From Pseudomonadota bacterium (GTDB taxonomy: Bacteria > Pseudomonadota > Alphaproteobacteria > Rhizobiales > Beijerinckiaceae), in the NCBI GenBank assembly GCA_023423995.1, contig JAFAEL010000092.1, positions 1 to 64,000 of the forward strand: a stretch of DNA of 64,000 bases, in the 5' to 3' direction. Made by a program: the position numbers and the translations under genes. Of the stretch, positions 12,131 to 47,927 are shown piece by piece; positions within the stretch are counted from its first letter, which is position 1, and each line of letters starts with the position of its first letter. Below the pieces are notes generated by a model. The model had not been told where the DNA came from, ran no database searches, and was given only the letters and a program-made list of their open reading frames with translations.

Positions 12131-12206
12131 CGCAGCGCTTGCGCTGCTGCCCTCTTTGGGCGTTTCCTCCCTAGACTTGGGCCGCACCACGTGTGCGGCC
12201 TTTTTT
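12131..12206 (+). ncRNA. Trans-acting small RNA of the alpha-r8/suhB (MmgR-like) family
   Basis: About 76 bases with a typical small RNA layout. Hairpin 1 is GCAGCGC/GCGCTGC (12132-12147). Hairpin 2 is GCCC-TCTTT-GGGC (12149-12161). An unpaired stretch, TTTCCTCCCTAGACTT (12163-12178), holds an anti-ribosome-binding-site sequence. An 8-base-pair terminator stem follows (12180-12187 with 12193-12200) and ends in six T residues. The alpha-r8 family (Rfam suhB; MmgR in Sinorhizobium) is known from rhizobia, where it lies between an N-formylglutamate amidohydrolase gene and a monophosphatase gene, exactly as here. The family call rests on structure, the CCUCCC motif and synteny recalled from the literature, not on a covariance search. 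Confidence 0.82.
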
Positions 12207-12263
12207 CTTTGCGCTGTCATCCGGGCTGACAGCGCTCCCGTTCATCTGACCTTCTGCTCGAAG

Positions 12264-32651: not shown

Positions 32652-33647
32652 CTACTGATCCCCGACCCGCTTGATCTCCCATTCGAGCTCCACGCCCGAG
32701 GTCTCGCGCACGCGGCGGCGGACTTCCTCGCCGAGCGCCTCGATCTCGGCCGCCGTCGCCTTGCCGTGATTGATCAGGAAGTTGCAGTGGAGCTCGGAGA
32801 CCTGGGCATCGCCGATGCGGAGCCCGCGGCAGCCGGCCTGGTCCACGAGTTCCCACGCCTTCCGGCCCGGCGGGTTCTTGAAGGTCGACCCTCCCGTGCG
32901 GGTGTTCACCGGCTGCGTGGCGGAGCGCGCATCCGTGATGGCGCTCATGGCGGCGAGGATCGCGTCCGGCTCGCCCGGGCGGCCCTCGAAAAGCGCCTCC
33001 GTGAAGATGTACTCGGCGGGCGCGCCGCAATGGCGATAGCTGAACGCCATCTCGGCCTTCGAGACCACATGGGCCCTGCCCTGCCGGTCGAGCGCACGCG
33101 CCTCGGCGAGGACGTCCGCGGTCTCGCCGCCATAGGCGCCGCCATTCATGCGCAGCGCGCCCCCGATCGCGCCCGGAATGCCGCGCAGGAAGGTGAGCCC
33201 GTCGATGCCGGCCTCTGCGGCCGCGCGGGCGACCTTCACGTCCGGCGCGCCGGCGCCGGCGCAGATGCGATGGCCGGCTTCCACCGTCACCTCCGCGAAG
33301 GCCTTGCCGAGGCGGATGACGACGCCCCGGATCCCGCCGTCGCGGATCAGGAGATTCGAGCCGAGCCCGACGACGAGGACCGGGATCTCCGCCGGGCAGC
33401 CGGCCAGGAACAGGGCAAGGTCCGCCTCGTCCGCCGGCGTGAACAGCACCTCGGCCGGACCGCCGGTGCGAAACCAGGAGAGAGGAGCCGTCGGGGCCTC
33501 GGCCTGCAACATCCCGCGCAGGCCGGGGATAAGACGGGCGAGCTCGCTTGCGAGGGCAACCTCTTCTCCCCGCAAGCGGGGAGAAGTCGAGTCGCTCGCC
33601 AGAGCGACCGGATGAGGGGCAAGCATGGTGGCGCCGATGTCGCTCAT
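32652..33647 (-). CDS. murB: UDP-N-acetylenolpyruvoylglucosamine reductase MurB with repeat-encoded N-terminus
   Basis: An FAD enzyme that reduces enolpyruvyl-UDP-GlcNAc to UDP-MurNAc. It is 331 residues. The FAD region is APLSWFRTGGPAEVLF and VVGLGSNLLIRDGG; GIPGAIGGALRMNGGAYG and STFKNPPG (catalytic serine region) are intact. The first 30 or so residues are unlike MurB: residues about 10-29 (APHPVALASDSTSPRLRGEE region) are encoded by an arm of a palindromic element, and residues 1-9 come from the spacer between its arms. Family homology starts at about residue 32 (ASELARLIPGLRG). No normal start codon lies between the element and the conserved fold, apart from a Met at residue 46 that would cut into it. 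The ATG overlaps the DUF559 stop (ATGA). Confidence 0.95.
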   Translation of the reverse strand: MSDIGATMLAPHPVALASDSTSPRLRGEEVALASELARLIPGLRGMLQAEAPTAPLSWFRTGGPAEVLFTPADEADLALFLAGCPAEIPVLVVGLGSNLLIRDGGIRGVVIRLGKAFAEVTVEAGHRICAGAGAPDVKVARAAAEAGIDGLTFLRGIPGAIGGALRMNGGAYGGETADVLAEARALDRQGRAHVVSKAEMAFSYRHCGAPAEYIFTEALFEGRPGEPDAILAAMSAITDARSATQPVNTRTGGSTFKNPPGRKAWELVDQAGCRGLRIGDAQVSELHCNFLINHGKATAAEIEALGEEVRRRVRETSGVELEWEIKRVGDQ

Positions 33648-33692
33648 CGGCCCTCACCCGGACGGCCTTTCCCCGTTTGCGGGAAAAGCGGG
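33563..33692. repeat. Composite palindromic element 1, spanning the murB start and DUF559 end
   Basis: Two arms. Arm A (33563-33620) has a hairpin CTTCTCCCC-GCAAG-CGGGGAGAAG, a second hairpin TCGCTC/GAGCGA, and ends CCGGATGAGGGGC. After a 31-base spacer comes arm B (33652-33692), beginning CCCTCACCCGGACGG and ending in a CCCCG/CGGGG-type hairpin. Arm B is roughly the reverse complement of arm A, so the whole can fold as a large cruciform. The spacer holds the murB start codon and the DUF559 stop. It closely matches the elements at 34053 and 39383. The hallmark sequences resemble rhizobial intergenic mosaic or REP-type elements. Confidence 0.85.
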
Positions 33693-34039
33693 GCGCGCTC
33701 CTCAAGGGCTGCGTAGATCGTGTCGAGCACGCTCGTCATCCTGGCATTCACGTCCGAGTTCCAAAAGCGCAGAACGCGATAGCCGAGCGACGCGAGATAC
33801 GCATCCCGCAGTCGATCGTACTCGCTATCCGCGTGCTGCGACCCGTCAAGCTCGATAACAAGCTTGCGCTCCCGGCAGGCAAAATCAGCGAAGTACGGCC
33901 CGATCGGCTCCTGCCGAACGAACTTGCAGCCGGCAATCTTGCGATTGTTGAGCCGCAACCAGATTTGTCGCTCGACATCCGTCTGCTCGCGCCGAAGATT
34001 GCGAGCTCTTTGAGTCGTCTTCTGGTCGGGGCCGCGCAT
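33644..34039 (-). CDS. DUF559 (Vsr/PD-(D/E)xK-like) nuclease-family protein
   Basis: A 131-residue protein of the DUF559 family, related in fold to very-short-patch repair endonucleases. The core reads ARNLRREQTDVERQIWLRLNN, then GPYFADFACRERKLVIELDGSQH (candidate metal-binding Asp and Glu-x-Asp), then YRVLRFWNSDV. The family is thought to be nuclease-like, but its role is not established. It interrupts the usual murC-murB order. Both ends are bounded by composite palindromic elements, and its last 14 or so residues (LFPQTGKGRPGEGR) are encoded by element 1. The stop overlaps the murB start by ATGA. The start is ATG at 34039. Confidence 0.85.
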   Translation of the reverse strand: MRGPDQKTTQRARNLRREQTDVERQIWLRLNNRKIAGCKFVRQEPIGPYFADFACRERKLVIELDGSQHADSEYDRLRDAYLASLGYRVLRFWNSDVNARMTSVLDTIYAALEERAPLFPQTGKGRPGEGR

Positions 34040-34052
34040 CGGATCCGGCCAT

Positions 34053-34200
34053 CTTCTCCCCGTCTGCGGGGAGAAGTCGAGTCGCTCATCAGAGCGACCG
34101 GACGAGGGGCAGGCGCGAGAAGCGTCGCCGACCGCCCCTCACCCGGACGGCCGCTCCGCGGCCTGCTCGACCTCTCCCCGTTGCACGGGGAGAGGAGGTC
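34053..34200. repeat. Composite palindromic element 2, between murC and DUF559
   Basis: The second copy of the element family, filling almost the whole gap between the murC stop and the DUF559 start. Arm A (34053-34110) is nearly identical to arm A of element 1: CTTCTCCCC hairpin, GTCGAGTCGCTC, GAGCGACCGGA, GAGGGGC. Arm B (34134-34200) starts CCCCTCACCCGGACGGCC and ends with the CCTCTCCCC/GGGGAGAGG hairpin. It has the same orientation as element 1, so the DUF559 gene is bracketed by two direct copies. Confidence 0.85.
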
Positions 34201-39382: not shown

Positions 39383-39545
39383 ATCTCCTCGCCCCGCGCA
39401 GCGGGGAGAGGTCGAGCAGGCCGCGGCAGCGGCCGCCCGGGTGAGGGGCATGAGCCAGCGAGGCTCGTCGTCGTTCCCTTGCCCCTCATCCGGTCGCGCC
39501 GACGCGCGACTCGACTTCTCCCCCTCAATGACGGGGAGAAGAACA
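39383..39545. repeat. Composite palindromic element 3, between mraY and murD
   Basis: The third copy of the family. Arm A (about 39383-39452) has the CTCGCCCCG/CGGGGAGAGG hairpin, TCGAG, a GGCCGC/GCGGCC hairpin, CCGGGTGAGGGGC. Arm B (about 39481-39545) reads TTGCCCCTCATCCGG, a TCGCG/CGCGA hairpin, CTCGACTTCTCCCC and GGGGAGAAG. The two arms are inverted relative to each other. It fills most of the 193-base gap between the mraY stop and the murD start. Confidence 0.85.
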
Positions 39546-47522: not shown

Positions 47523-47539
47523 GGCGCCTGAAGGACAAG

Positions 47540-47927
<388 letters not shown>

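Follow-up and report, generated by a model that had tools for sequence, protein, structure and literature searches.

The locus described here raises the question of why a nuclease-like gene should stand between two copies of one palindrome inside a cell-wall operon, and whether gene and palindromes form a single unit. The stretch of DNA that was analysed, called the window throughout, is 64,000 nucleotides long and comes from a bacterium of the Beijerinckiaceae. A sequence-only reading of it had claimed that a DUF559 gene breaks the murC-murB junction and is bracketed by two direct copies of a composite palindrome, each with two inverted arms, one copy occupying the gap upstream of the gene and the other encoding the C-terminus of its product. 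The features concerned are the following.

33644..34039, minus strand: DUF559 (PF04480) nuclease-like gene, 131 aa, between murC and murB and in the operon direction (Pfam PF04480, E 5e-39)
33563..33689, no strand: composite palindromic element 1, two inverted arms (single-stranded DNA folding z -4.6)
33563..33586, no strand: main hairpin of element 1, CTTCTCCCCG..CGGGGAGAAG
33609..33662, no strand: facing pair of box motifs of element 1, with the intervening spacer
34053..34195, no strand: composite palindromic element 2, the whole murC-DUF559 gap (single-stranded DNA folding z -8.5)
34053..34076, no strand: main hairpin of element 2, gene-proximal arm
34171..34195, no strand: main hairpin of element 2, murC-proximal arm, CCTCTCCCCG..CGGGGAGAGG
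32652..33647, minus strand: MurB ORF, its start overlapping the DUF559 stop
about 39387..39541, no strand: third composite element of the same family, gene-less, at the mraY-murD junction

This description was borne out in each respect. Elements 1 and 2 are direct copies spaced 485-490 bp apart (89% identity over 63 nt and 81% over 37 nt), and when folded as single-stranded DNA neither was equalled by any of its 200 shuffles. Arms in the window consist of a GC-rich main hairpin of the CTTCTCCCCG or CCTCTCCCCG type, a linker which often makes a second hairpin, and a CCCTCAYCC-type box; element 2 is thus laid out as two outer hairpins, two linker hairpins and two facing boxes able to pair. The sequence CTTCTCCCC occurs seven times in the window, against 0.91 occurrences expected. 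By coordinates, element 1 codes for residues 117-131 of the DUF559 protein, its last 15, and supplies codons 1-28 of the MurB ORF; the stop of the one gene and the start of the other overlap as ATGA at 33644-33647. Given this overlap and the 28 element codons, the essential cell-wall gene murB may be translationally coupled to the insert. The N-terminus of the MurD ORF was apparently drawn from the gene-less element at 39387-39541. Elsewhere the window holds an mmgR-type sRNA (Rfam suhB family) at 12142-12216 and a bacterial RNase P RNA at 47538-47925.

The sequence-only reading had also proposed a comparison with genomes whose murC-murB junction is uninterrupted. Matches to murB were found in 149 of 150 genomes, and 30 loci were fetched, 28 of them readable. 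In 24 of these 28 the aligned ends of murC and murB lay 47-109 bp apart, so that the junction is uninterrupted in most of the loci read; the remaining four contained a gene-less composite element (one locus, L232) or other DNA (three loci). A genome outside those 30 loci (G039, locus L123) had a DUF559 gene plus one element at the same junction. From the 24 short gaps, L232 and G039 the junction is therefore known empty, with an element only, and with gene and elements.

To compare DUF559 genes with other genes, as the sequence-only reading had suggested, 208 domain hits were reduced by 14 duplicates and nine edge loci to 185, of which the 162 that cover more than 80% of the domain form the full-length set. 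The first 80 loci were picked by similarity to the window protein, and a count of the core motif CTT?CTCCCC used 73 of these 80 (those over 6 kb, with at least one locus, L075, off-centre). It gave 153 occurrences in the 250-bp upstream bin and 142 in two downstream bins; the remaining 250-bp bins, to a distance of 5 kb, had 0-10 each. We also used a motif-free measure across the gene, in which the upstream flank was locally aligned to the reverse complement of the downstream flank and a score of at least 30 was counted as an inverted match. Such a match was found at 118 of the 162 full-length loci vs 8 of 349 control ORFs (mechanical ORFs of 90-700 codons from the same loci), and at 6 of 362 controls with 350-bp flanks. 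Any palindrome with a score of at least 40 was found at 146/162 DUF559 loci vs 57/349 controls, and because so many controls reach that score the across-gene measure is the cleaner one. Enrichment beside DUF559 genes over other genes is thus very strong.

The 162 loci represent 85 gene contexts, 75 of which had a palindrome scoring at least 40 next to the gene. An evenly drawn Pseudomonadota subset, taken by itself, gave an inverted match across the gene at 39/58 loci and any palindrome at 49/58, in 50 contexts. Among the 44 full-length genes without arms matching across the gene, 34 had a one-sided palindrome and ten had neither. Distant PF04480 domains within very long frames (ten loci: L191-L198, L200 and L201) showed no inverted match across the domain. 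Outside Pseudomonadota, where loci were hand-chosen from 45 plasmid records, matching arms were seen at all four Deinococcus loci and at two of the three cyanobacterial loci opened; the Synechocystis and Thermoactinomyces DUF559 genes had no matching arms at the loci opened. E. coli ycjD has an arm on its downstream side only, partly decayed in K-12 relative to strain STN0717-11, and a 41-bp piece of this arm is found again in another strain, between ypfG and tkt. The gonococcal gene encoding the 3hrl protein has repeats on both sides.

The arms were also examined as folded structures. The regular expression used to find them fixes the inner six main-stem pairs, so that the outer pairs alone test complementarity; these outer pairs fell into three co-varying forms, with 66, 39 and 8 of the 123 distinct arms, and in 115 arms the main stem was complementary throughout. 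Linkers of at least 11 nt (54 arms) formed stems of 4.1 bp vs 2.5 bp in shuffles. A script for polarity recognised no arm at 77 of the 162 loci; of the arms that it did recognise, 66 of 70 on the upstream side and 60 of 65 on the downstream side had the box pointing toward the gene. Arm order relative to the gene differs between lineages.

DUF559 loci without the window motif can bear different arms of like design, and we therefore asked how arm sharing varies with the similarity of the proteins. The comparison took in 12,452 pairs of loci, all from different contexts, although the pairs are not mutually independent. Arms were shared by 0.4% of pairs with protein identity below 0.3, 9% at 0.3-0.4, 12% at 0.4-0.5, 23% at 0.5-0.6, 50% at 0.6-0.7 and 99.5% above 0.7, while background DNA 800-1050 bp away from the same pairs stayed flat at 0.1-0.5%. 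Below 40% identity, arms were shared by 9% of 57 same-genome paralogue pairs vs 8% of 4815 different-genome pairs; above 60%, same-genome pairs shared arms in 83% of 12 cases. For 50 of 64 genes the arms were nearer to those of the best foreign relative than to those of own-genome paralogues (less near for 12, equal for 2). Comparing the flanks by k-mer Jaccard index lacked the sensitivity for this purpose (rho 0.26 for flank vs 0.27 for background). The rise of arm sharing with protein identity is our strongest single result: judged by these comparisons, the repeat is evidently a property of the nuclease lineage and not of the genome. The sequence-only reading had counted elements varying independently of the gene as evidence against it, and they do not vary so, arm sharing climbing with protein identity over the whole range.

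Chance hitchhiking in repeat-rich genomes, or common ancestry of the loci, would be a simpler source of such an association, and one context was indeed common to 29 of the 162 loci and another to 14. We regard it as barely credible, since the co-variation test was limited to different-context pairs, other ORFs of the same loci were seldom flanked, and the background flanks were flat.

Evidence for movement came from blocks that recur at unrelated places. In R. johnstonii 3841, a 612-bp block of 89% nucleotide identity recurs at two DUF559 loci whose domains are 97% identical; it starts at a main hairpin and has unrelated flanks on both sides. In one Methylocapsa genome, blocks of 570-609 bp are common to three loci, again with unrelated flanks. 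The Methylocapsa L180 unit has extra 18-bp inverted ends outside its arms, and a 289-bp gene-less copy has ends like those of L180 (one mismatch each in 16 bp) and arms 94% and 85% identical to its arms. Same-genome DUF559 pairs at least 80% identical numbered 6 of 147.

Single junctions also differ between close relatives. At one junction in the S. americanum genus (30 genomes, 33 matched), 11 genomes had DUF559 with hairpins, two an element or remnant, and 17 were empty, the empty junctions being 22-58 bp long; filled and empty sister genomes exist. On the 30-tip tree parsimony gave seven changes, where random labels averaged 9.2 and 83 of 1000 shuffles were as low. The sequence-only reading would have been weakened by an insertion fixed in all relatives; these seven inferred changes indicate that it is not fixed. 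In Deinococcus, the hpa operon is unbroken in D. deserti and carries inverted DUF559 units at differing junctions in NW-56 vs D. proteolyticus. The claim that element, gene and element make up a small mobile unit is thus supported by the recurring blocks with unrelated flanks and by a junction found filled, solo and empty.

No target-site duplication was detected among 17 solo elements of one genome, 126 of 500 permutations scoring as high. Just outside the mobile unit in one Methylocapsa genome lie halves of a palindrome (GTCATGGCCG..), both at L310 and one each at L306, L312 and L101; by a strict pattern the intact GTCATGGCCG.. palindrome is present at two places in that genome. These halves suggest insertion into hairpin loops.

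Two further candidates for empty sites were rejected. E. coli strains without ycjD were not clean empty sites, the strains opened holding RND and TetR efflux genes there instead; in GN05476, an MFS-RND-TetR efflux set lies between sapF and fabI, the position of ycjD in K-12. The ycjD query was covered to at least 80% in 3330 of 5426 genomes. The S. meliloti pSymB strains showed an internal deletion between hairpins rather than an empty site: in KH46 compared with 1021 (L266 vs L245), 50 bp between the two hairpins of the element are missing and the ends are joined at the repeated stem.

We then turned to copies away from the gene, in samples of 150 Pseudomonadota genomes and 121 genomes of one order. 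Stand-alone DUF559 genes were counted by hand (31/150 and 49/121), omitting hits with E >1e-9, mostly very long frames; the exact- and relaxed-pattern counts below include arms beside DUF559 and some nested matches. The exact arm pattern was found in ten of the 150 genomes, all ten belonging to the 31 that carry a stand-alone DUF559 gene (p 4e-8), and a second arm pattern gave 137, 103, 75, 56 and 3 matches in five genomes and none in the other 145, all five carrying DUF559 (p 0.0003); these p-values overstate the case because the genomes, like the pairs of the lineage test and the genomes of the one-order sample, are related. Each of the ten exact-pattern genomes had at least one match distant from a DUF559 gene, and in two of them (G012 and G102) the sole DUF559 match is broken. 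Locus L139 of G102 holds a frame-broken DUF559 gene between two arms, apparently a decayed unit. Within the one order, at least three relaxed matches were found in 25 of the 121 genomes, 24 of them with DUF559, and at least seven in 17 genomes, 16 of them with DUF559. The exception, G161, had 17 relaxed matches (some nested) and gave no DUF559 match even at E 10, a negative which by itself shows little; six more of the 72 DUF559-free genomes had one match each. G161 may reflect DUF559 loss, an incomplete assembly or a true counter-example. Dispersed copies can take the form of doublets: in G054, 17 complete inverted doublets (120-175 bp) were seen in 20 stretches fetched for holding an arm, and plus-then-minus arm pairs about 90 bp apart occur among the places listed for G134, G066 and G062.

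These dispersed copies bear on the possibility that DUF559 is a passenger, hitchhiking between host repeats that another transposase moves. Arms without the gene far outnumber gene units, one Methylocapsa unit has the 18-bp inverted ends beyond its arms, and PF01797, the RAYT-type domain and the only transposase family surveyed, is present in three of the ten exact-pattern genomes (G012, G046 and G122). We nevertheless think this unlikely: PF01797 was not found in the other seven of the ten or in any of the five second-pattern genomes, copies are nearly restricted to DUF559-bearing genomes, arm type tracks the DUF559 lineage and not the genome, and only 8 of the 349 control ORFs are flanked in this way.

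The DUF559 protein has nuclease-like features. Six residues are invariant in 42 DUF559 sequences (E23, D52, E63, D65, H69 and D75), a set which we take to be of the EDxHD type, the motif name for this nuclease fold class. Pfam found only DUF559 in the window protein, plus MTES_1575 below cut-off, and thus no known transposase domain; PADLOC hits were to parts of large proteins. A structure model with pLDDT 79, which replaced a poor single-sequence model (pLDDT 63), matched 3hrl (E 2e-8) and the homing endonuclease I-Bth0305I (PDB 3r3p; E 0.001-0.002, target-normalised TM 0.73-0.74), and weakly Vsr (1vsr, E 0.06). Several Toxoplasma mitoribosomal proteins ranked between 3hrl and Vsr in this search, and matches to cholera-toxin B (E 0.6-0.9) were dismissed as noise.

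The likeness to I-Bth0305I would suit a free-standing homing endonuclease which cleaves unoccupied junctions and enters them when the break is repaired by copying, with the palindromes as by-products or a target signal. So would the re-occupation of regions, as at murC-murB in the window and G039, at two junctions of the Deinococcus hpa operon and at one junction within a genus. Spread over 85 contexts, shared blocks at unrelated sites, and tens to more than 100 gene-less matches are unlike homing behaviour, and we judge this explanation improbable. The weak likeness to Vsr raises another, that DUF559 is a Vsr-type mismatch-repair enzyme that serves solitary cytosine methylases, the role proposed for VsrA of Caulobacter, with the palindromes as terminators. 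According to the available excerpts of PMC12907096, VsrA has a DUF559 domain and is required for the SOS response in cells without a cytosine methylase. Against the NCBIfam model of the Vsr family (TIGR00632), the window protein scored 16.6 bits, under the cut-off of 97.85, and such a role would leave the co-variation, the dispersed copies and the moving units unexplained, which makes it highly improbable in our estimation.

In our best reading, the locus would belong to a REPIN/RAYT-like mobile system driven by an unrelated nuclease. We consider it probable that the DUF559 gene and its adjoining arms form one mobile system, in which DUF559 would be the cognate Vsr/EDxHD-fold nuclease nicking folded arms of its own family. 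Mobility and arm-nuclease co-specificity are apparent from the comparison of genomes, which showed units at unrelated sites, presumptive gain and loss at one site, gene-less relatives, and arms tracking the protein lineage. Gene-bearing units would move as arm-gene-arm, and gene-less copies would be their non-autonomous relatives. The folded form of its own family's hairpin-plus-box arm would be what DUF559 recognises and nicks, and nicking would help DNA bounded by arms to be transferred or copied into gene junctions, with gene units and gene-less copies alike as substrates. Binding and cleavage of hairpins by DUF559, the order of strand events and action without a partner are what we infer. 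The variable arm order and the lack of a detected target-site duplication do not point to any one insertion chemistry. The sequence-only reading had suggested that DUF559 may mobilise or process the repeats: enrichment, co-variation and the non-fixed insertion have strengthened this, while binding and cutting by DUF559 itself stay, as before, at the level of a proposal.

A wider claim, which we hold to be evenly balanced, is that DUF559 would define a new class of transposable element in bacteria: a Vsr-fold nuclease that acts on hairpins would be its sole enzyme, and fresh copies would insert into the loops of other palindromes. The orphan GC-rich palindromic repeats of Rhizobiales, the E. 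coli ycjD-type repeat, the repeat next to the gonococcal 3hrl gene and the cyanobacterial CCCCCTAAATCCCCC repeats would then be miniature derivatives. The DUF559 family, whose function is unknown, is widespread; it includes ycjD of E. coli K-12, and the structure of one member has been solved (3hrl). Some dispersed bacterial palindromes have no known mobilising enzyme. CGTC repeats, another sequence type, are said to have none in the available excerpts of Di Nocera et al. (PMC3733652). If DUF559 does move its own arms, a role could be assigned to one function-unknown family, and laboratory strains could be used to test where many intergenic repeats come from; an alternative reading would also be offered for the DNA damage response linked to the DUF559 protein VsrA in Caulobacter. 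The open-licence literature, in the excerpts available, yielded no link between DUF559 and palindromic repeats, so priority is not certain.

Among known systems, classical insertion sequences resemble these units in the terminal inverted repeats around the gene, here seen as the inverted match across it, and insertion sequences with MITEs in the discrete unit and the gene-less relative with similar ends and arms; DUF559 differs from them in having no known transposase domain, and no target-site duplication was detected in the 17 solo elements of one genome. EDxHD/Vsr-fold homing endonucleases such as I-Bth0305I (3r3p) share the fold and the placing of the gene at variable sites, but DUF559 genes are here not in introns or inteins, and have palindromic arms and gene-less relatives. 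RIME and Brucella Bru-RS are composite palindromic intergenic repeats of Rhizobiales, which resemble the DUF559 arms in description. RIMEs are annotated in S. meliloti, according to the available part of PMC2573895. E. coli YcjD and the N. gonorrhoeae 3hrl protein are encoded by DUF559 genes adjoining arms of such a kind.

RAYT transposases are thought to spread REPIN copies into gene junctions. From the available excerpts of PMC3116915 and PMC8266576, the REPIN-RAYT system, or REPtron, is alike in three respects: a nuclease gene bordered by cognate palindromes, inverted palindrome doublets dispersed between genes, and co-evolution of enzyme and palindrome, the closest enzymes being in different genomes. 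It differs in that RAYT (TnpAREP) is an HUH/Y1 enzyme (PF01797), where DUF559 has a Vsr-like fold, and in that RAYTs are described as single-copy, with a gene that is not itself mobile, where some genomes have at least two near-identical DUF559 units and share blocks between unrelated sites. The RAYT analogy of the sequence-only reading thus holds for the organisation and fails for the enzyme family; as the defining HUH enzyme is absent, the DUF559 system is not a member of the REPtrons, though it appears to work like one. Should DUF559 prove to move its own arms, the problem that RAYT transposases solve would have been solved a second time, by an unrelated enzyme family.
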